Shown here: piece by piece, positions 1 through 64,000 of the stretch
Position numbering within the stretch: the first letter of the stretch is position 1
Layout: the number at the start of each line of letters is the position of its first letter
Source: Bacteriovoracaceae bacterium
GTDB taxonomy: Bacteria > Bdellovibrionota > Bacteriovoracia > Bacteriovoracales > Bacteriovoracaceae
DNA length: 64,000 nt
Direction: 5' to 3'
Assembly (NCBI GenBank): GCA_016784965.1
Contig: JADHTQ010000021.1
Span: 1 to 64,000 of the forward strand
Notes under the pieces: model-generated
Database searches by the model: none
Seen by the model: the letters and a program-made list of their open reading frames with translations, nothing else
What the model was told of the DNA's origin: nothing
Translations under genes and position numbers: made by a program

Positions 1-56
1 TGTTAGATAAATTACCCCAAGCTCAAACTCTAGAGGATTTTGAGAATCTTCTTCCC

Positions 57-980
57 TTAAAAGGTCAGTTCCTGGCCAGATAAAAAACTGTAAATCAAGA
101 GAAAAGTTGCCCCCAGGGTCACAGGGGTGCACCGCTTACCAAAATACTCCAAACTCAAGACCTTTCTTTCTCCAAAACGGTTAATCGCTTTTCCTATATA
201 TGGATTAACAAAATAATTAATAATATTATTTATAATAAACAACAAAGAAATCTCAAAAGCACTGAAGTTAAATTTTTCTACCATTAAAAAAATTGCAAAG
301 GCCACAAACACTTGGCGGCGGGCCCCTGCTAGAAGTGTTAACCAGTAGTACAGGAAGTACTTCTTTTTAAAAATCATTTTTTTATGTTGTACAGGAATGT
401 CAGTATGAGTTGGATTCATAGAAAATGCCCATAGTCCACAAAGGACAACCATAAACCCAGCACTCAAATATATCATTTGATAGCTTGCAAACTTTAACAT
501 AATTAGAACGATCCCGCCGGTCACTACACTTGCCAAAGAGCCAAGTGACTTCAGTCGTGTCATAACCAGTGGAGCAGTTTTCACATCAAAATATTGTAAG
601 CATAGCGACTGCTTTACCGTTTCAAAATAGTGAAATCCTAGTGAAAGTATAATTGTTGTAAGGATGATTCCATGAAACGAAGGTAGCTGGCCCGTTAAGG
701 CAATACCAACTCCCAGAAAAAGGATAGAAAGTGCTGCTAATTTGTGCTCTTTTATGATCAATAGCACATAGATAACAAGAAGGGCCAAAAAGCCAGGAAT
801 CTCTCTAACTGATTGGATGGCCCCCATTTGAAATCCATCTATCATGGCATTTTCTACGGCAAAATTGTTAAACAACGATCTCCAAGCCTGAAAACCCATA
901 ACTGACGATAATGACAAGATTAGAAGAAACAAGTACATCTTCGTTTTTTTGGCGCTTTCAAATCCTGAATTAATAGTCAT
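57..980 (-). CDS. MFS-type membrane transporter, apparently C-terminally truncated
   Basis: The product is a polytopic inner-membrane protein with about eight hydrophobic segments. It has a major facilitator look: a first helix after residue 15, a short charged loop, and a central cytoplasmic loop near residue 200 (HKKMIFKKKYF) followed by a second bundle. Full MFS proteins have about 400 residues and 12 helices; this one ends at about 307. The loop GERKVLSLEYFG should lead into helix 9, but the next 25 residues (KRCTPVTLGATF onward) read like an unrelated frame, so a frameshift, deletion junction or assembly error near position 130 is likely. I chose the ATG at 980; a TTG at 989 is also possible. 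The substrate cannot be told. The transporter call is fair; the truncation is seen directly. Confidence 0.65.
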   Translation of the reverse strand: MTINSGFESAKKTKMYLFLLILSLSSVMGFQAWRSLFNNFAVENAMIDGFQMGAIQSVREIPGFLALLVIYVLLIIKEHKLAALSILFLGVGIALTGQLPSFHGIILTTIILSLGFHYFETVKQSLCLQYFDVKTAPLVMTRLKSLGSLASVVTGGIVLIMLKFASYQMIYLSAGFMVVLCGLWAFSMNPTHTDIPVQHKKMIFKKKYFLYYWLTLLAGARRQVFVAFAIFLMVEKFNFSAFEISLLFIINNIINYFVNPYIGKAINRFGERKVLSLEYFGKRCTPVTLGATFLLIYSFLSGQELTF

Positions 981-52436: not shown

Positions 52437-53444
52437 ATGCAAACCTCCTTGGCGCAAAATGAAGCTTTAATTAATGAATATAAAGGTAACATTTTTGAGT
52501 ATTTGGTTGGATTACAATTGGCCCAACACTTCAATATTGAAAACAAGTTTCTTTCTTCAATAAATCAGAACATGCAACGTCAATTACAAAGTTATGAGTC
52601 TTGGCTGCAAGAATATGACCAAGAATTGACAAAAGAGTTACCTAAGCTGGCAACTGCAGTTGTAGATGAGCTAATACCTAAAATTTCTGGACATATAGAC
52701 AATATTCTAATCATAGGTAAAACTGCCGGAGCATCTAGCAATAATAAGTGGAACGAAGCCGACCTAATGATTATTAAACCAAGCTCTGATCAACCTGTTA
52801 GCATTAAACTTTGTAAGGAAAATTCTTATATAAACACCAAAAGTGGTGGCGCTAAAAGTTTCCTAAGTAAATATTTTCAAGCATTTGTTGATTGTAGTGT
52901 TCTTCAAGAAAATTTGAACCTCATAATTGATCAAAGTTTTTATAATATGGGGCAACTACTACATGACCATGTAAATCTAGAATTTCATGGTCAATTTGAT
53001 AATTCATGGACAGAACATGGCCACACAGAGTTCCCTGGTAAACTCAACCCAACTTTGAAAAAAATTGTTCGCAACTATTATCATGAAGTGATAACAGGAA
53101 TTTACAACTCTTTACTGTCATTAAATAAACAAGATCCAACCAAATTTGCTCAAGCGCTACACCCTATTGTTGGCTTTGGTAACGAAGACATTTTACAGGC
53201 CATATGCTTCCATGGTACTGCAAATTCTGGAATCCATAAAAGAAAATACCAACTAAAAAGAGTCGCTATTTGTGATATTTACGATGTGGTAGAGCAACTT
53301 GCAGCACTTACAGTCACACCCCAAAAGTCAGATCTGAGCTCTTTTGAAATAGCCTTAAGAACTTGGAGGCTACAAATTCGAGTCAAGCCAATGAATAAAT
53401 TTACCCTACCAGGTCTAAAAGTTAATTGTTCTGTCAAAAAATAG
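52437..53444 (+). CDS. possible orphan PD-(D/E)XK nuclease-like protein
   Basis: A 335-residue protein with no signal peptide, so cytoplasmic. It begins with an E-bearing helix (EYKGNIFEYLVGLQLA) and then shows a core-like segment KWNEADLMIIK, followed by VSIKLCKENSYINTKSGG: an acidic residue, a hydrophobic strand and a Lys (S-I-K), as in many restriction-type nuclease cores. The assignment is by pattern and may be wrong. No methyltransferase or specificity gene lies next to it. It starts three bases after the barrel gene, though a cytosolic nuclease in an exported run is odd. Confidence 0.45.
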   Translation: MQTSLAQNEALINEYKGNIFEYLVGLQLAQHFNIENKFLSSINQNMQRQLQSYESWLQEYDQELTKELPKLATAVVDELIPKISGHIDNILIIGKTAGASSNNKWNEADLMIIKPSSDQPVSIKLCKENSYINTKSGGAKSFLSKYFQAFVDCSVLQENLNLIIDQSFYNMGQLLHDHVNLEFHGQFDNSWTEHGHTEFPGKLNPTLKKIVRNYYHEVITGIYNSLLSLNKQDPTKFAQALHPIVGFGNEDILQAICFHGTANSGIHKRKYQLKRVAICDIYDVVEQLAALTVTPQKSDLSSFEIALRTWRLQIRVKPMNKFTLPGLKVNCSVKK

Positions 53445-53551: not shown

Positions 53552-56500
53552 ATGAAAATTAAATTTTATTTAAGTTGTTTTACAATTTTTCTAGTAATTT
53601 CAAGTAGATCCTTTTGTGCCCCAACATCCTATCCAGGTGCTGTGCCCCTAGACAATTCAAGGCCTCCTGCCACTGACCTTATTGGCGAAAATGGTAGATT
53701 ACTTCCCCTTTATGAGGCACAACAACTGAGGCTTAAAGGCTTTGATATCTCTACTTTAAACCCCAAAGAGAGTAATATTTGGAAAGATAAAGGATTTTCT
53801 GAAAACTCAAACCACTACCTTCCAATTCATATAAATAGTGACGATGTAGTAAAAAATGCTTCTATAGCCAAATCACCTACCGGCACTATGAGATTCAACG
53901 GAACCATGGAAGGCAATAACAAGATTTACACTTTTAGGATGAGCAAAAGAATCCATAATGTATTGCTTCGCTCTACATTTTTGAAAAAGCTTGGCTATAG
54001 CATACCTCCTATAAAATATATCAAAAAAATAAGAGTAAAGTTTCCAACAGTAAAAGCTAAAAAAGCATTTATTAAGATTATGGCCTCTACACTTCTCACC
54101 AATGATGAAAATGTAAAAAAGAGATGGATCGCTGAAGACAAAGAGGGAGGAGTTGAAGTTGTCTTACAGGATTTAATTGCAACTAGTATGAACCATCATA
54201 CTTACAATTTGGCCGATGGATTTTTAAATGGCCACTCACATATCAAGGGTCAAAGGGCCTTAAATGCGCTTCTTGTTCCATACCACCTTACTTATGTACC
54301 AGAAAGTATCAACTTATTTCCATGGCGTTGTGGGAAAGTTGTCAGTGGTAATATTGTATTTGATTATTTTTACGCCGAACAATTCTCCACACCTATTGAA
54401 GATGTGAAATGGATCTTAAATCGAATCTTCAAACTTACAAGACAAGATTACGAAGAAATCGTTGCTGGTGCTAAATACCCGAAAGAGGTGGCCCTTCTCA
54501 TGGTCGAGAAATTAATTGAAAAAAGAAATAACTGTAAAGAAGTTTTAAATATTGCTGCCAAAGAGCTTGCTATCGACCCTGACGTTTCATACGGTGAGTT
54601 TCTACAAGGCGGGAAGTTACTTAAAAAATTCTGGGATGGTAAAGGCTCATGGTTTGCCTTTGGCGACCCTGAATCTCCACTTAGTGCTAGTGAAATATTT
54701 GCCTTTATGAGATCAAAATTTACTTCAAACGTTATAAGTAACTTAATAATGAGGTTTAACAAAAACTATATGCCTAAAACTGATCTTGAAAGTAAAGTAT
54801 ACGATCAACAATACGAAAAAGCAGTGAAACGCTTAGTAAATTATATGAAAACCAGAAAAGTTGAAAAAACTAATTTTGGGGTATGGGCCATCCCACGTTA
54901 TGGTGTAAATTCAATTCTATCAAGAGATATAGTTGCTGGCAGCTATATGGGCACAGATAACACTATCCAGCTAGCAGACTCCATTGGAATAAATCTTGAT
55001 GCTGGAGCATATCTTGGAACCGACGGCGTTCCCGCACCATGGACATTAAGTGGTGGATCTAAAGTCTTTGTAAACAGAGTATATTCTCACTTAAAACCTA
55101 TCAAAAGTATGAAAAAGGCCCTAAAAGAACCATTTGAAAATATGCTCGTTCCTTGGCTCAAGCGCGACTTTGGTGCTACATTTGATCTGTTGGTACCAGG
55201 TAATTTCCCCGAGCTAAAACAAATTTATTATCTTGATCCCATTAGAGACTATGTTACACATACCGCTAACTTGGCCATCACTCACTTTCACACTCATGGA
55301 TATAAAATAGAAACTCCTATAATCGAAAAGGCCCAAAAAGAAATATATGCCATATTAGATAAAGAACAGACTAAAAACAGTCTTACAAATCCTAGAAATC
55401 CTGCAAAACAAAAGAAGTTGAAGGCAAGGTTAAAAAACTTAGTATCTATTATAAAAAATATGGGCGACTTTGCTTACTATAAAAATGAAATAGATAATGC
55501 TCTAAACAAAGCTCTGTTATACACAGGCTCAAGAGGCCTGTTATCAGAAAACACAAGAGCGTTTAGAATACGTGATAATGCAATTTCTGTAATTGATAAA
55601 GAAATTAGAAAAAGACAAAAAGTAGGATTACAAGCAAGCAATCCTCAAAATCTGCCCGACTTATCATCACCCATAAAAAAACCTTTTGTTAAGAAAATGC
55701 AAGAAACACTTGCCAACCTAAATACGACATGCCAAGGCTGTTTAAATAGAGGTAGTGAAGCTGCTTTAGCTGAAAACGCCACCCTAGAAGAACTTCAAGA
55801 GGAGGAGGCACAAAAAAAGATTGCTGCTTTTAATGAAACAACTTCTAAAATAGAGCTCATCACAGGCGACCCAAATACAATAATCCAAACTGAGATCAAT
55901 CGCACCATGAAAGAGTTTAAAAGCAGTCTTGAAGTTGGTGAATCAATCATTATCACTGATAGTTTGGGTGGTGAATTTAGTGTAAATGCAGGATATAGTT
56001 TTTCTGAGGTTGTAAAGGCTATGGCCCAGTTTAGGTCACAGCTACTCACAATTTCAAGATTGCATATTCATCGAAGAGATGAAAACACTATCCAAATTTA
56101 CAAAGACTTAGGAAACCTAGGTTCTATAAAGATATCTTTAGGGATTCATGCTAAAATTCCAATCATCTCTGTCTCTATGGAGGCCAAAAAGGGAAATGCT
56201 GATGTAAAGTTCTATCAACTAAAAATTGGCGAAACAAATAGAAAGAAAAATCCAGAAATTCTTCCAACCGTCCATGCTTTGAGATCCTTGTTTTTAGATA
56301 ATTCTACAGAAGCCACTGAGATAGTGAATGTACCCTATACTTTAACACATGATTTTAGCGCAAAAAACACAGATGCATCGCTTTTGTGGTACCAATGGAG
56401 ATGGAAAAATGATTACGATTTTGTAACCATCACTCATCCTAAAAGTTATGGTTTTTTCCTAATGTCAAAGGAGCCCACACAGGCACAACTTCCTGCACTT

Positions 56501-57673
56501 GCCTTTACTGACAACCAGTTATTTTCTTACAAATTAGTCGACCAAAATGTTGAAAAAAGGCCAGTAGATATTGGAGATATAACAGAGAGTAATCTGAAGC
56601 ATTTGAAATTTGACAAAGATGAAAAAGCATATCTAACTAGAGAGCAATGTGACTTAATTGAATTGAGGGGTAGTCACAACTGCCCAAAGGCCTTGAATAA
56701 ATATTTTTTCAAAACTAGAATTGGCAAAAGATCTGGAAAAAACTATGAAAAGTTGGTCTTAGATATAATCAATTCAATAATCAAAGAGAACTCTTCTGAA
56801 GAAGTGGTTTTATCGAGCATTAATAACGGTGATCCAGGAAATTCATTTTGGGGTGAATCAACTGTACGCGAAGTAAGTTATGAAGCTGAAGTAAAGGAGT
56901 TAAACAGAGACTCTGAAGGTAAAGGTTGGGGCGAACCACTTCACTCATTTCTCAACCTTACCTATCGATGGAAGGGTTTTAAGCTTTCAAGGGACAAAGC
57001 TGATGAAATACTAGAAGACATAAATAAGAAATTTGGCTCCCAGCTTTACCCAAGGCTTGCCCTGCAGACTTCAAAAAACCTACAACTATACAATATAAGC
57101 TTAAATTTATTTGTCTATGATAAAGGTATAGATTGGATGGCCAGCCTATCTAGGTCGGAAGTTAAAGCTATTATTGAAAGATTCATGAACGTTAGAGATG
57201 CAGCTGAAGACATGATAACCACAGGAGAATTCAACGACCACTATGTCGTAATGGACGGCATTACACCTCATGAGCATATGTTTTATGAGAATGCCTACGC
57301 TGAAGCAAAAGGGAAAATTTTGAGTAGCTTCGTAGAACGTTTTATGGGATATCAAAAAGATTATAAAAAAGCACTCAGGGATAGAGATTTAGAAGACATT
57401 TCTGAGTATACCGCTGAGATGTTCTCTTTGGTGGAAGTTAGTTTACCCATAGAGGGCATAATCGCTATGGTAGGCGGAAGAGATAACCTTTACATCAATT
57501 CAAAAATCAATGGTTTTAGAGAAGGAGATGAAAATGGTGACCGCCCCTATGTCTCAAATACTATTGGCGTGTTTGGTGATAGATACTTCATGGGTCCTAT
57601 GTACGCAATGAAATCTCGTCTTGGAATGACTGATGCTGAATTTTTTATTAACTGGTTACTAGGAAGATTATAA
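53552..57673 (+). CDS. giant exported protein, unknown (1373 aa)
   Basis: A signal peptide (MKIKFYLSCFTIFLVISSRSFC) opens a 1373-residue protein with no transmembrane helix, so it is periplasmic, outer-membrane associated or secreted. It mixes helical regions with beta-rich ones (FGVWAIPRYGVNSILSRDIV, AGAYLGTDGVPAPW). A CQGC motif near 730 (LNTTCQGCLNRG) is the only close Cys pair I see. No known family comes to mind. AGAGG lies six bases before ATG. The last base of its stop codon is the first base of the protease start codon (TAATG), so the two are coupled and probably work together. Confidence 0.7.
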   Translation: MKIKFYLSCFTIFLVISSRSFCAPTSYPGAVPLDNSRPPATDLIGENGRLLPLYEAQQLRLKGFDISTLNPKESNIWKDKGFSENSNHYLPIHINSDDVVKNASIAKSPTGTMRFNGTMEGNNKIYTFRMSKRIHNVLLRSTFLKKLGYSIPPIKYIKKIRVKFPTVKAKKAFIKIMASTLLTNDENVKKRWIAEDKEGGVEVVLQDLIATSMNHHTYNLADGFLNGHSHIKGQRALNALLVPYHLTYVPESINLFPWRCGKVVSGNIVFDYFYAEQFSTPIEDVKWILNRIFKLTRQDYEEIVAGAKYPKEVALLMVEKLIEKRNNCKEVLNIAAKELAIDPDVSYGEFLQGGKLLKKFWDGKGSWFAFGDPESPLSASEIFAFMRSKFTSNVISNLIMRFNKNYMPKTDLESKVYDQQYEKAVKRLVNYMKTRKVEKTNFGVWAIPRYGVNSILSRDIVAGSYMGTDNTIQLADSIGINLDAGAYLGTDGVPAPWTLSGGSKVFVNRVYSHLKPIKSMKKALKEPFENMLVPWLKRDFGATFDLLVPGNFPELKQIYYLDPIRDYVTHTANLAITHFHTHGYKIETPIIEKAQKEIYAILDKEQTKNSLTNPRNPAKQKKLKARLKNLVSIIKNMGDFAYYKNEIDNALNKALLYTGSRGLLSENTRAFRIRDNAISVIDKEIRKRQKVGLQASNPQNLPDLSSPIKKPFVKKMQETLANLNTTCQGCLNRGSEAALAENATLEELQEEEAQKKIAAFNETTSKIELITGDPNTIIQTEINRTMKEFKSSLEVGESIIITDSLGGEFSVNAGYSFSEVVKAMAQFRSQLLTISRLHIHRRDENTIQIYKDLGNLGSIKISLGIHAKIPIISVSMEAKKGNADVKFYQLKIGETNRKKNPEILPTVHALRSLFLDNSTEATEIVNVPYTLTHDFSAKNTDASLLWYQWRWKNDYDFVTITHPKSYGFFLMSKEPTQAQLPALAFTDNQLFSYKLVDQNVEKRPVDIGDITESNLKHLKFDKDEKAYLTREQCDLIELRGSHNCPKALNKYFFKTRIGKRSGKNYEKLVLDIINSIIKENSSEEVVLSSINNGDPGNSFWGESTVREVSYEAEVKELNRDSEGKGWGEPLHSFLNLTYRWKGFKLSRDKADEILEDINKKFGSQLYPRLALQTSKNLQLYNISLNLFVYDKGIDWMASLSRSEVKAIIERFMNVRDAAEDMITTGEFNDHYVVMDGITPHEHMFYENAYAEAKGKILSSFVERFMGYQKDYKKALRDRDLEDISEYTAEMFSLVEVSLPIEGIIAMVGGRDNLYINSKINGFREGDENGDRPYVSNTIGVFGDRYFMGPMYAMKSRLGMTDAEFFINWLLGRL

Positions 57674-60600
57674 TGAAAACTATAAAAGAACTATCTTGTA
57701 AAGTTGCTCTTATTTCGGCCCTTATAAGCATTAGTCTTTCGACCTATGCTGTAACAAACAGGGTACTGGTGGAGTTTAAGAAGATTCCAACACAGAAAGA
57801 AATTGACCAGATGTTAAAAACAGAAGGTATAAAGTCCCTTGAGCGCTTTGATAATGTGAAGCTTGGAAAGTTAGAGTACGATTATTTTAGAAGACTATTT
57901 TACCTCCAAGCAGATGTCGATGCGATTGAAGATATAAAAGATCACCCTAAAGTAGCCGGTATTGAAACAATTGGAGAAGTTAATGCTTTTTCAGTCGTTC
58001 CAAGCACTACTTCTATAACAACTGATACATTCTCAAACTATCAATGGGGCATAGACAATAACGGACAAGTTATACTGCGAGATGAGGATCAGATTAGATA
58101 CAAACAAGTAAATGGTATCAAAGGAAAAGATATTAAAATCAGCAATGTATATTCTACTTTAAATGATTCGTTTAAGGCAGAAAGTGTACTTGTAGCAGTC
58201 ATTGACTCTGGTATTGATCCAAACCACCCTGATTTAAAAAATGCAATTTATCGCAACAAAGTTGAATGTGATGAATCTGGCAATATCATAAGATCAGCAA
58301 GAGAAGACAAAGACAATAATGGATTCAAAGGAGACTGTAGCGGGTGGAACTTTGCCTCCAAACGAGGAAGCAACAAACCCACCGATAGCAGAGGACATGG
58401 CACACATGTTGCTGGTATTATTGCAGCATCATCGTCAAATGGTTTAGGAGTGGCAAGCTTGGCCCCTGCAAAAATCAAGATCTTACCAATTAAAATATTT
58501 AATAACAGAGGAGTTAATCTTAACGGTTCTGTTAGTAATGAGAAGCTTGCTTCCTTTACAGATGTTGTCGCTAAGGCCATTCGCTATGCCGTCTTAATGA
58601 AGGTACAAGTTATTAATATGAGTTTTGGGTGGCCCCGAAGATTAAACTCTAAACATCTTTCAGAGGCTTTAAAAATGGCACTTGATAACAATATCGCAAT
58701 TGTAACAGGTGCAGGAAATAATGACACATTAAGGCCCGTATACCCATGTGCCCACAATGGAGTAATTTGTGTAGGTGCCACCAGTATAGATGGCTCAATG
58801 GCAGGATTTTCAAACTATGGTGGCTTTGTAGATTTAACAGCTCCTGGTGAAAAGATACTCTCAACCTTCCCTCAGCGAATTGAACTAGATGATCCAAGAC
58901 TAGAGTTTACCCAAAAGGGTTACAACTACAAAAATGGAACCAGCCAATCTGCTCCATTTGTCTCACTTGCTTTTGCGATCCTAAAAGGTATTTATCCAAA
59001 TAGCACAAATGACTCTCTTGTAGCCAGACTCTACGAAACTGCTTTGGCCCCCTCTAGCAAAAAATTTACAAAAGCAGGGCTTATCCAAATAGAAGATGCA
59101 ATAAATATCAACAAAAAAGTAAGTATTAAACCAATATTTAAAGGGATACAAACAGTTCACGTCAATATGAATTCCAAAAAGTTTTCATTTGAACTGCCTA
59201 TTAAAAACTATTGGGCCCAAGCAAAAAATATAAAAGTTTTAATTAATATTAAAAGCGATAGTATTAAATTAGAACAAAAGATGTATAACATTAATAAGTT
59301 AGAAGAGAGTGAAAGTAAGAAGTTAATAGTCACAGGTCATATAAAAAGCACCTCAGCAAACTCAGACAATATGCTTGAAGTAGAAATTACTACCCAAAGC
59401 TTAGCTAGTCAAAGCTATAAACACAATGTTAGTTTTGCAAGAGATGCCATATCTGACCAAGAACTACTAATTAAACAAATTTCTTACCCCGGTCCCAATG
59501 AAGACCTAGTTGAAATAACAGAAGGCAAACTTGTACCAACTATAGAGACAATTAATGATAAATACCGAGACTCTAATGCTCCGGAATATTTCGCCAGCAA
59601 AGTTGTAGAAAACAACCTTGAGCTATCTATTTTTGCCCTAGAAGGCAATACTTTTAAAGCTCAAAAAATTTCTCTACCAAATGTCACACAAATAATGACT
59701 ATCACCAGGGTTGATTTAAATTATGATGGACAAAAGGACTATTTTATTCGATCGATAGATATAAAAAGTGCAAACAGAAGAGATGCATACATCCTCTATT
59801 CCTTTTTAGACTCTAATTTAAAACCTCTTTTTAACAATCCACACTTCAAATTCTTCCCGAACACTGTAATTGTGGATAACACTAATATCAACTTTAAGAT
59901 GAATTTCATACCAGTCAATACAAAACATGGGAAAATGGCAGTTCCTTTTTTCTTGGCCATTGGCTCAATTCCTGTAAATAGCCAAGATTTTACTCCTTGG
60001 GTTTGTGGTGAAGACCGGGGTAGAGAAAGTGAAAGAAATCCAGATATTTGGGACTGTGAAGAAGAAGACATTTCTCCTCAGAAACACGCCTACTATTTAA
60101 TTCCAGACTTCGACAACCAAGAACTAAGGACTAAATTATTTGACAACTACAAGTTTAAACAGGCCCTGGAGAGCAAGTTTGATTTATACAAAAACCCAAT
60201 AACTCTTTTAGGTCTAGCATCTCAAGATAATACTAGTTTTAAAAATGGTCGTGCCATATTTCAAATGGCAGTAGGATACAATAGTTACTGCGCTGTAACA
60301 GTTTCTGAAGATTTAAAATATGAGATAAACTCCTTAAATGTTGGATATATGCACCTTGAGGGAGCTAACCGCGTGCCTGTTACACTTATCAAAGACAATA
60401 AGGCATCATATTTTGAGGCGACTGGATTTACAAGCTTACAAAATAATACTCTTGCAGAATTTCTATTTCTCGATCCTCAGAATCCTCACACCCTCAGTTC
60501 ATATTTTAATTATGAACATGCAAGAAAAAGAGATCATATCTTGGCCCCTCTTGTAAACTTCATTAAAGGGGACACAAGCTACAGTGCCGTTCAAACAAAA

Positions 60601-60969
60601 AGCACAAATGTTGTCAGGGTATCAAGAAACTTTAACGTACTAAATACCTATGAGTACCCAGTAGATAGGGTTACGTTCTTACCAGGAAGCACATTTATGG
60701 AGTTTTTCTACCCATTTACCATTAAGCGCAAGGGTGAACTCATACCTGCCCTGTATGTTGATGCTACTGACTTAAATACGGGACATGTCTACTTTGTAGG
60801 CCTAACAGAAGATGGACCTATAACCACTATAAATAACAACATATACATTCCAGAAAATTGTACTTCAATGAACCAAACAAGCATTGACTCTAAAGAAGCG
60901 GTCGCTCTACTGTGCAAAGAACAAGATAAATTGGTATTTAAGTACTTACCAATTCAAATTAATGATTAA
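57673..60969 (+). CDS. subtilisin-family (S8) serine protease with long C-terminal region
   Basis: A 1098-residue exported protease. After the signal (about 1-27) an I9-like propeptide (VLVEFKKIPTQKEIDQML) precedes the S8 core at about 170-445. The catalytic residues are all present: Asp178 (AVIDSGIDPNHPDL), His242 (RGHGTHVAG), oxyanion Asn349 (TGAGNND) and Ser424 (GTSQSAPFVS). The remaining 650 residues are beta-rich, with a Cys-bounded segment (WVCGEDRGRES, WDCEEED) and calcium-like DLNYDGQKDYF. The long tail may bind a target. It is likely secreted and may act on prey or on its giant neighbour. Confidence 0.88.
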   Translation: MKTIKELSCKVALISALISISLSTYAVTNRVLVEFKKIPTQKEIDQMLKTEGIKSLERFDNVKLGKLEYDYFRRLFYLQADVDAIEDIKDHPKVAGIETIGEVNAFSVVPSTTSITTDTFSNYQWGIDNNGQVILRDEDQIRYKQVNGIKGKDIKISNVYSTLNDSFKAESVLVAVIDSGIDPNHPDLKNAIYRNKVECDESGNIIRSAREDKDNNGFKGDCSGWNFASKRGSNKPTDSRGHGTHVAGIIAASSSNGLGVASLAPAKIKILPIKIFNNRGVNLNGSVSNEKLASFTDVVAKAIRYAVLMKVQVINMSFGWPRRLNSKHLSEALKMALDNNIAIVTGAGNNDTLRPVYPCAHNGVICVGATSIDGSMAGFSNYGGFVDLTAPGEKILSTFPQRIELDDPRLEFTQKGYNYKNGTSQSAPFVSLAFAILKGIYPNSTNDSLVARLYETALAPSSKKFTKAGLIQIEDAININKKVSIKPIFKGIQTVHVNMNSKKFSFELPIKNYWAQAKNIKVLINIKSDSIKLEQKMYNINKLEESESKKLIVTGHIKSTSANSDNMLEVEITTQSLASQSYKHNVSFARDAISDQELLIKQISYPGPNEDLVEITEGKLVPTIETINDKYRDSNAPEYFASKVVENNLELSIFALEGNTFKAQKISLPNVTQIMTITRVDLNYDGQKDYFIRSIDIKSANRRDAYILYSFLDSNLKPLFNNPHFKFFPNTVIVDNTNINFKMNFIPVNTKHGKMAVPFFLAIGSIPVNSQDFTPWVCGEDRGRESERNPDIWDCEEEDISPQKHAYYLIPDFDNQELRTKLFDNYKFKQALESKFDLYKNPITLLGLASQDNTSFKNGRAIFQMAVGYNSYCAVTVSEDLKYEINSLNVGYMHLEGANRVPVTLIKDNKASYFEATGFTSLQNNTLAEFLFLDPQNPHTLSSYFNYEHARKRDHILAPLVNFIKGDTSYSAVQTKSTNVVRVSRNFNVLNTYEYPVDRVTFLPGSTFMEFFYPFTIKRKGELIPALYVDATDLNTGHVYFVGLTEDGPITTINNNIYIPENCTSMNQTSIDSKEAVALLCKEQDKLVFKYLPIQIND

Positions 60970-60974
60970 AAAGT

Positions 60975-61003
60975 CATGACTCTTGACCTAGGTTAAGGTC
61001 ATG
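60975..61003. terminator. hairpin after the protease gene
   Basis: CATGAC...GTCATG with the inner CTTGACC-TAGG-GGTTAAG-like pairs forms a long stem with one bulge, directly after the S8 stop. Only a weak T-rich stretch (GCATTTG) follows, so it may be a terminator or an mRNA stem between two parts of the cluster. Confidence 0.4.
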
Positions 61004-61114
61004 GCATTTGAATTGCATTATAGTGGGCAAGACTGCTAACTATGTTTAATTATATCGATGTTTATAAACAAACTTGATTACATATTAGACAGCTGGCTAT
61101 TTATTGGAGAGTGC

Positions 61115-64000
61115 ATGACAAACAAAACTCAAGACTGGATTAATTTCTTTAGTATATTTTCCCTTATATGCGTGATTTTAGGTACACCCGTCATCTCTAA
61201 TGCTGGTTTTATCCGTAGTTATAAGCACATAACTCCAAGAACACTTTGTCGTGAATATAGGCTTACACCATCCATTGAATCTGAAATGTCAGATGACTTA
61301 CTATGCGTTTGTGATGAGTTAACAGAATATAATGAGCTAGATAAAAGAGAAGGTGGATTGATCTGCAATGAAATCAGATCTTTAAAGAGTCAACGTGACG
61401 TCACGGCAATAGCTGCATTCTCTAAGTTAATGGACACACCACTTAGCAAAAATCCATTAATACAACTCAAAGAGTTCTCCTTAAAAATTGCAAAATATAA
61501 TCAAGAATTTTCCGATCCTGCCATGAAGGATAAAAAGCGAATAAGCAAGGTTATAAGAGAGCTTTATGACGAAATTGAACAAAAGATCAAGGAACCTGAG
61601 TTACAAAATTTAATAACTATTAAGCCACTTTTACGTAACATTATAAATGAATACATTACACTTTTAAGAGTTAAAAAAGTAAGAAGGGCAAAATCACGTT
61701 CAAAACTCTATCGCAAGGCAAAGTTGCTCAAAAAAATGCTCACCCCTGGAGATGACCATGGAATATTAAAAATTACAGCTAAAAATATTGCAAAACTGCC
61801 ACTAAGGAAAGTATGTGAACACTATGAATTATTACCTTCTTTTAAAGAACAGATGCCAGATGACTTAATTTGCATATGCGAGGAAACTAAAGGTTTTTAT
61901 AGCACAATAAAGCGGACTGGTGGCCCACTTTGCAACACCTTTAGAACACTTAAAAAAGCTAATGACCAAAAATCACAAGCTGCCATTGCAATGATTCTTG
62001 AAACACCTTTCGACAAATTTAAAGCTGTACATGCTTTTAAAAAAGCTAAAGCAACCCCAAAAGCTCTTGATATTAAGAAGTTATCTATACAGGAAATTTG
62101 TAGGCGGTATGACTACCTACCATCGTTAGACTTAAAATACTCTAATGACATCCTATGTGTCTGTGATGAATTAAAGGGGATGCATAGTCTAGCGAAGAAA
62201 GAGCCAGGTCCATTGTGTGAAGAGATAAGATCTTTAAGGGAAGAACGTAGCCTTGGGAGTGTTGATAAAATCTCACAGCTTGTCAGCATTTCGTATGAAA
62301 AATTTGTTGAATCTAAAAAAACAAAAAAGAAAACACCTCAAAAAGATCCTAAATTATTACAACAGCAGCAACTGGCAAAGAAGCTAGCCAGCTTAAGCCC
62401 ATTTAAAAAGCCAGACCTACAAGAGATTGCACAACAGTTACAAATTGCACACTTTAAATACATGAAACAAAACCCAAAAAGTGTAAATAGAGAATTATAT
62501 GAAAAAACCGAACTTACAAATGCATGTATAAATACAGCAACATCAAAAAAGAAGCCTACCGTTTTTATTATCTCCCTTTCTGATAAAGTTTGCCGAGTTG
62601 AAAGTGAAAATTCCTCTTTGGATTTAGGTGACTTAGGTAGCACCAAAACAAAGAACAACACTACTGACCTTGAAAACATTTTAAGCGGCATAGAGTTTAT
62701 ACCAAAAGGGATAGAACCAAATGATATTTTCATTGCTGCAGATATTTTATCTGAACAATTAAAAGGTGACAGTAATGACATTTTTACAATTAGTGGGTTA
62801 ACAAAGACTGTTATGAAAATCAACGAAGATGTCGACCCAGAAGATGATACAAGGTATATTCCAAAGCTAACCCTAGAGCTAACTGGTGCTTTAACAGATA
62901 TAATGGAGAAGGCATTAATCATCAAAGTTGCTACTCAAAATGTAATCAACGATCAAACTATTGATGTAAAAACAAGGCATACAGTTCTTACTACTTACAT
63001 ATCAGAGGTCTTAAGTAATGTCAGAGCTTACTTACTACTTCTTTGGAATCATAAAAAAGATCCACACAAAGATATCTTAACCATCAATCTTAGTTCATTA
63101 ATGACGATATCATTTCCTAGTGATTTAGTACCAAAGCCAACAGACTCTACGGACTTAATAAGTAAAATGCAGCAAGAGATTCAAGATGCAGGAGATGTGG
63201 TGGTTATAGATGATCCATTACAAAGTGGTCTAAAAACTATAATTGATCATCCTGTTAAAATACTTCAAAGAAAGGCCAATGTTTTAATAAGTGCCCCAAC
63301 TGTTGATAACTACATGCTTGCCATAAAACTAATATCCTTAAAAACCATTCTTGAAAAAGTGAAATTCGATAGAACAATTACGGATAAAACATACCCATAC
63401 AAGGTGCCAGATTCATGTCGCATAAGCAACAATGGCGAATTGCCAGACTTCATCCCATTTGAACAAACAACAAAAGAGACACGTTCTAACATGTTGGATG
63501 ATATGTTAAAACAATATGCTTTAACTTATGAAAGCGATGAATACTGGAAGCATTATTCCAAAAACAACACCAATGCCAGTCCAATTGAAGGAGGGCTCAA
63601 TGGTCTAATGATTTTCGAGCGGTGGAAAGCAGCCCATGATGCATTAGCACCGGAAGTAGATACTTTATCACTTCAATTTTTGGCCAACAAACTTAATCCA
63701 TCACCACTTCCTAGTCGTGAAGTTGCATTAGATGACTATAAAGATTTTGATAAAGTGAAAGACATAAAAGAAACCATGGCACTGGCATATTTGGCCAATC
63801 CATCAACTCTTGAAAGCTACTTACCTCCTCATAAAGGAATCATTGAGCAAAGAAAAAATATTTTTCAAACAGTAACTACCATAAGCAAAAAAAGCGATAT
63901 TAAGCATGTCTCGCCAAGGCTGGGTCCTACCAGTTCAACCAAGTATAATTTAACACCATACTTGGCAGCCAAAATGGAAAATGGCAATACTGGTAATTGG
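61115..64000 (+). CDS. exported protein with three four-Cys repeats, cut by the window edge
   Basis: The frame opens at ATG 61115 (GGAG five bases upstream) and runs open to the right edge: at least 962 codons. The signal region is SIFSLICVILGTPVISNA. Residues 39-95, about 228-285 and 323-379 are three copies of a 57-58-residue unit of pattern C-x(2)-[EHR]Y-x(3)-P...DD/ND-[LI][LI]C[VI]C[DE]E...GG/PG-[LP]xC, that is, one Cys, a CxC pair and one Cys in each. Between and after them lie charged spacers and long alpha/beta regions without such Cys. I know no family with this repeat. The stop codon is outside the window. Confidence 0.75.
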   Translation, partial: MTNKTQDWINFFSIFSLICVILGTPVISNAGFIRSYKHITPRTLCREYRLTPSIESEMSDDLLCVCDELTEYNELDKREGGLICNEIRSLKSQRDVTAIAAFSKLMDTPLSKNPLIQLKEFSLKIAKYNQEFSDPAMKDKKRISKVIRELYDEIEQKIKEPELQNLITIKPLLRNIINEYITLLRVKKVRRAKSRSKLYRKAKLLKKMLTPGDDHGILKITAKNIAKLPLRKVCEHYELLPSFKEQMPDDLICICEETKGFYSTIKRTGGPLCNTFRTLKKANDQKSQAAIAMILETPFDKFKAVHAFKKAKATPKALDIKKLSIQEICRRYDYLPSLDLKYSNDILCVCDELKGMHSLAKKEPGPLCEEIRSLREERSLGSVDKISQLVSISYEKFVESKKTKKKTPQKDPKLLQQQQLAKKLASLSPFKKPDLQEIAQQLQIAHFKYMKQNPKSVNRELYEKTELTNACINTATSKKKPTVFIISLSDKVCRVESENSSLDLGDLGSTKTKNNTTDLENILSGIEFIPKGIEPNDIFIAADILSEQLKGDSNDIFTISGLTKTVMKINEDVDPEDDTRYIPKLTLELTGALTDIMEKALIIKVATQNVINDQTIDVKTRHTVLTTYISEVLSNVRAYLLLLWNHKKDPHKDILTINLSSLMTISFPSDLVPKPTDSTDLISKMQQEIQDAGDVVVIDDPLQSGLKTIIDHPVKILQRKANVLISAPTVDNYMLAIKLISLKTILEKVKFDRTITDKTYPYKVPDSCRISNNGELPDFIPFEQTTKETRSNMLDDMLKQYALTYESDEYWKHYSKNNTNASPIEGGLNGLMIFERWKAAHDALAPEVDTLSLQFLANKLNPSPLPSREVALDDYKDFDKVKDIKETMALAYLANPSTLESYLPPHKGIIEQRKNIFQTVTTISKKSDIKHVSPRLGPTSSTKYNLTPYLAAKMENGNTGNW
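61229..61399 (+). repeat. four-Cys repeat, copy 1 (protein-level)
   Basis: Residues 39-95: begins TPRTLCREYRLTPS, then DDLLCVCDELTEY, and ends REGGLICNEIRSLKS. Twelve or more positions are identical or conservative with copies 2 and 3. Confidence 0.8.
61796..61969 (+). repeat. four-Cys repeat, copy 2 (protein-level)
   Basis: Begins LPLRKVCEHYELLPS, then DDLICICEETKGF, and ends RTGGPLCNTFRTLKK. The CxC pair and flanking DDL are kept. It lies about 190 residues after copy 1. Confidence 0.8.
62081..62251 (+). repeat. four-Cys repeat, copy 3 (protein-level)
   Basis: Begins LSIQEICRRYDYLPS, then NDILCVCDELKGM, and ends EPGPLCEEIRSLREE. It lies 38 residues after copy 2 and is closest to copy 1 in the CVCDEL block. 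Confidence 0.8.

Follow-up and report, generated by a model that had tools for sequence, protein, structure and literature searches.

An apparently undescribed CxC module in three copies near the N-terminus of a giant, putatively exported protein from Bacteriovoracaceae

Introduction

The window analyzed here, 64,000 nucleotides from one end of a contig of a Bacteriovoracaceae bacterium (assembly GCA_016784965.1, contig JADHTQ010000021.1), closes inside a gene whose product carries three copies of a cysteine-patterned unit. The locus raises the questions of what these units are, what kind of protein bears them, and what they might do there. We addressed them by completing the reading frame, comparing the copies with one another, searching sequence and structure libraries for relatives, and examining the remainder of the protein and its gene neighborhood. 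Feature coordinates are collected in Table 1.

Table 1. Features of the unit-bearing gene, in window coordinates
Feature	Position	Residues	Strand	Remarks
Signal peptide, Sec type I-like	61115..61204	1-30	+	Cleavage after VISNA; direct sequence
In-window part of the 2,053-aa ORF	61115..64000		+	Cut by the window edge
CxC unit 1	61226..61435	38-107	+	C45, C64, C66, C84
CxC unit 2	61793..62002	227-296	+	C234, C253, C255, C273
CxC unit 3	62078..62287	322-391	+	C329, C348, C350, C368; AlphaFold2: short helices
Conserved body, start	62519..64000	from T469-N-A-C471	+	Continues to contig position 67276 (aa 2053); Bacteriovoracaceae homologues

Results and Discussion

The carrier is a giant protein with an export signal

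The ORF is a real coding frame, of which the first 961 residues lie inside the window. A first-pass annotation had described an exported protein only partly contained in the window, and both points held. Followed past position 64000, the ORF is complete on its contig (C55, 67,521 bases), where it occupies 61115-67276, encodes 2,053 aa, and stops 245 nt before the contig ends. Its product begins with a Sec-type signal peptide (MTNK...VISNA, followed by G; inspection and hydropathy) with a hydrophobic stretch at aa 9-27, and an RBS-like GGAG lies ~6 nt 5′ of the ATG. An alternative ATG at 61058 would place 19 extra residues ahead of the signal peptide and is a less likely start. We predict that the unit-bearing protein sits in the envelope or outside the cell, because its homologues have either a Sec signal or, among the Bacteriovorax-like ones, a lipobox-like motif (L-x-S-C). 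The host genome also encodes DsbA-family oxidoreductases.

The three units are old copies of one repeat

The cysteine spacing, C-x18-C-x-C-x17-C, is identical in all three units. The units are 32-39% identical in pairs (over 79 columns, unit 1 against unit 3 reaches 37% and unit 2 against unit 3 reaches 32%), and their pairwise Smith-Waterman scores of 156, 150, and 148 stand 25-30 SD above shuffled sequences (means 24-26, SD 4.4-4.9; top of 1,000 shuffles 45-52), which rules out chance similarity. The Cys-conserved triple repeat proposed from the initial inspection is thus real, given the shared spacing and these scores. The 57-58 residues first assigned to each unit proved slightly short, as the similarity extends through another helix to ~70 aa. 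The unequal gaps described at the same time agree with the measured Cys positions: the first Cys of one unit is 189 and then 95 residues from the first Cys of the next, leaving ~38 residues in the second gap.

The three-unit alignment has 14 invariant columns out of 79, four of which are the Cys. Between aa 32 and 420 the protein has 12 Cys, every one of them in a unit, and each unit holds an even number. Acidic residues are conserved beside the CxC, and the units have no conserved His. The DNA shows the copies to be old: identity is only 32-48% at third codon positions, against 52-55% at positions 1 and 2 together, and the Cys codons, some TGT and some TGC, differ between copies. Since all 12 Cys were kept despite this divergence, the Cys pattern looks selected. 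The retention is seen among the internal copies, the sole comparison that homologues lacking the units allow.

Searches return this protein alone

The units had been called apparently undescribed, and library searches supported this, placing them in no named domain family: they had no match at a meaningful E-value in Pfam, NCBIfam, or PDB sequences, and with each of the three, Pfam returned nothing at E ≤ 10 (HMMER filters apply). PHROGs gave E-values of 0.01-0.24 to families without function, which we treated as chance. Across the genomes searched (family, 129; phylum, 369), a profile built from the three copies found this protein only, the other matches being marginal fragments (E 0.005-0.1), several of them across stop codons. 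Scanning 84,980 GTDB species genomes and IMG/VR contigs for the pattern yielded no relative, though this approach requires near-exact peptides and could overlook more distant relatives from other phyla. A tblastn search of plasmids and phages likewise yielded none.

A source within the protein itself was considered. Profile-profile comparison showed no relation between the units and the body's own Cys-pair region, nor did the units show any to the rest of the body or to the short N-terminal element of the homologues. By these comparisons, the unit appears to be an undescribed domain without a relative in the libraries searched, and one that, among the genomes searched, would be confined to a single lineage or genome.

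The unit is predicted to be helical

AlphaFold2 modeled unit 3, with the other two units as its alignment (three rows, all from one gene), as five short helices (8-15, 19-23, 27-37, 49-60, and 63-73) at a moderate mean pLDDT of 77. The model cysteines 12, 31 and 33, and 51 fall in three of these helices, with the CxC inside a helix. Hydrophobic moments were larger at 100° than at 170° in all copies and helices, which favors helix over strand. Compared with PDB folds, the model gave no significant match in Foldseek (best E 5.2) and no match with Z of 2 or more in VIA. This lack of fold matches does not show that the fold is new.

The units are added to the body of a conserved family

Searching with the whole protein returned homologues in 11 other genomes among the 39 searched (E 2e-29 to 1e-7), mostly over aa ~560-1680. 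A core profile of ~975 positions, built from 28 rows that include this protein, scored it at 818 bits and matched 50 of 291 genomes of the phylum, 44 in the same family and six in two other families. The full ORFs of the homologues span ~1,450-1,610 aa (11 + 32 loci, some of them the same record; Halobacteriovorax, Bacteriovorax, and others). They align with the body along its length at ~18-25% identity, most of them from a T/K-N-A/S-C that corresponds to T469-N-A-C471 here, and 31-33 of the 33 aligned sequences retain Cys 471, 493, 768, 1460, and 1534. We therefore assign the body (aa ~469-2053), by sequence comparison, to a putative unnamed family of giant exported proteins or lipoproteins of Bacteriovoracaceae.

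The N-termini differ. A CxC was found in none of the 11 + 32 homologous loci, at least two of which are on contigs that cut the N-terminus. Export signals are of the Sec type in Halobacteriovorax-like homologues and lipobox-like (LQSC/LESC) in Bacteriovorax-like ones. The homologues carry a short N-terminal element, R-x-P...G-K-D-L-x-x-D-C, with R, P, G, and C invariant in a 12-row alignment. On inspection this element is not in our protein, which has a 440-residue unit-bearing region instead; the element is a variable, non-defining appendage, and the family assignment rests on the body. Since the N-terminus of the other family members is short and lacks a CxC, the units are apparently a lineage-specific N-terminal addition. 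Homologues such as those of a Halobacteriovorax MAG (CAJXVS010000004.1), H. marinus, and Bacteriovorax MAGs share with the present protein the Cys pair after T-N-A/S-C, further conserved Cys, and a hydrophobic stretch at about aa 1510-1530, whereas they are shorter, with a short N-terminus and no CxC units.

The modeled body (aa 457-1640) is mostly helical, with a mean pLDDT of 66. For aa ~510-730, only HEAT/solenoid-like helical proteins matched, with Z up to 8.9 (rmsd 4.3-4.6 over 155-162 residues), and such model-based matches appear unspecific, within the range of common helical arrangements. Past the window, aa 1510-1621 include a conserved Gly-rich hydrophobic segment with conserved Cys (in homologues, similar to GGACTGVTGGLCAPLG), plus another hydrophobic stretch; the two are a possible membrane hairpin.

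The gene neighborhood does not point to the upstream proteins as partners

Immediately upstream, at 53552-60969, lie genes for a 1,373-aa exported protein (P0003) and a 1,098-aa S8 subtilisin-like protease (P0002). The suggestion that the units bind one of these products found no support, because in relatives the pair, adjacent in many Bacteriovoracaceae (e.g. G022:C196, G017:C32, and G002:C1), has its own conserved linkage and lies away from the homologues of the carrier. The genome holds a second copy of the pair (G000:C31:12201-19540) at 69% amino-acid identity, with a DNA match of 72% over exactly both genes. A near-palindromic hairpin, strong and without a T run (GTCATGAC...GTCATGGC, 60967-61003), lies directly 3′ of the protease stop codon and may separate the protease from the unit-bearing gene or act as an operator. 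Just past the carrier's stop codon, a 58-bp stretch (C55:67275-67332) recurs on the contig of the second pair (L102:19941-19998) at 81% identity.

Further upstream, a 335-aa gene without a Pfam match (52437-53444) recurs in one relative (G017; L033) at 39% identity, there two genes upstream of the carrier homologue. The protease pair may therefore have been inserted between the 335-aa gene and the carrier. In most relatives, the carrier is stably accompanied by a convergent gene for an exported protein of ~320 aa, and often also by one for a second giant of ~1,150-1,380 aa without a Pfam match. Both adjoin the carrier homologue at L027:294-10343 and likewise in L025, L026, L028, L030, and L032, and a 552-aa AMP-binding protein resembling acyl-CoA synthetases is often encoded upstream. 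Carrier, ~320-aa protein, and second giant form a possible conserved envelope system. In this genome, where the contig ends 245 nt past the ORF, single-sequence searches with the two flanking genes of relatives gave no match, an empty result of little weight.

The units are probably disulfide-stapled helical modules

On balance, sequence and model favor, by a modest preference, reading each unit as an extracytoplasmic helical module stapled by two disulfides within the unit. Disulfide stabilization had been suggested at the outset and is plausible because the protein is exported, each unit has an even number of conserved Cys, and the genome has DsbA-family genes. The N-terminal extension would then carry one small, all-helical module in three old copies, each folded extracytoplasmically and held by two internal disulfides. 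The middle helix of each would bear the C-x-C with side chains toward opposite faces, and with two thiols so placed, pairing with the Cys of two neighboring helices is the simplest reading: the CxC helix would be stapled to the N-terminal helix through the first Cys and to the following helix through the fourth. Less firmly, we infer that the modules most likely serve as stable display or binding heads on the long helical envelope body. It is doubtful that they amount to a new single-lineage extracytoplasmic fold, a central-CxC-helix module triplicated into binding heads for prey recognition or envelope attachment.

Four invariant Cys with a CxC pair flanked by conserved acidic residues could also form a structural Cys4 zinc site, the CxC serving as knuckle together with the two outer Cys. 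We consider this unlikely, as an exported protein in a cell with DsbA-family oxidoreductases meets oxidizing conditions, under which few Cys4 zinc sites occur, the CxC is predicted within a helix, and His is not conserved. CxC pairs are known from some redox and metallochaperone proteins, a precedent for modules that use the CxC as a reactive pair in thiol redox chemistry or copper or heme handling in the envelope. This is very unlikely for units that have no CxxC or heme motif and no Pfam, NCBIfam, or PDB match, and whose three copies on a giant scaffold fit structure or binding better.

That the units were found in this genome only, and in none of the inspected homologues, could also mean that they are a lineage-specific insertion that has no function and is neutral or decaying. 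The ORF is intact, however, and the 12 Cys, their spacing, and the invariant columns were kept despite third-position divergence, which makes this reading decidedly improbable. Kazal-like modules inhibiting the neighboring S8 protease would suit a weak hit among PDB sequences, a Kazal domain of SPINK5, and the protease gene just upstream, but the match (E 0.63) is not significant and the protease pair is not a conserved neighbor of the carrier. A Kazal inhibitor would be expected to have six Cys and Y-x3-C, whereas the units have four Cys, another spacing, and no such signature; we regard this proposal as highly improbable.

The locus shows that a conserved, uncharacterized giant envelope protein of predatory-type bacteria can acquire lineage-specific Cys modules near its N-terminus, a possible way of varying surface contacts. 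It also singles out a compact, testable domain, although, for an orphan of a single genome, the wider significance is at present modest.

Comparison with known systems

The Helicobacter cysteine-rich proteins and their Sel1-like repeats are built of ~36-residue helical pairs, with a Cys spacing unlike that of the CxC units. In principle they are comparable to the units as interpreted here, being secreted, disulfide-braced helical modules of a repeat-bearing envelope protein (PMC3851747, PMC4597128). None of the three units matched a Pfam profile of the Sel1 repeat or Hcp family at E ≤ 10, nor was there a Pfam match to CHCH. CHCH (twin CX9C) helical hairpins resemble the unit in having four Cys, helices, and presumably two disulfides, and differ from it in spacing, the unit's x18/x1/x17 standing against their twin x9.
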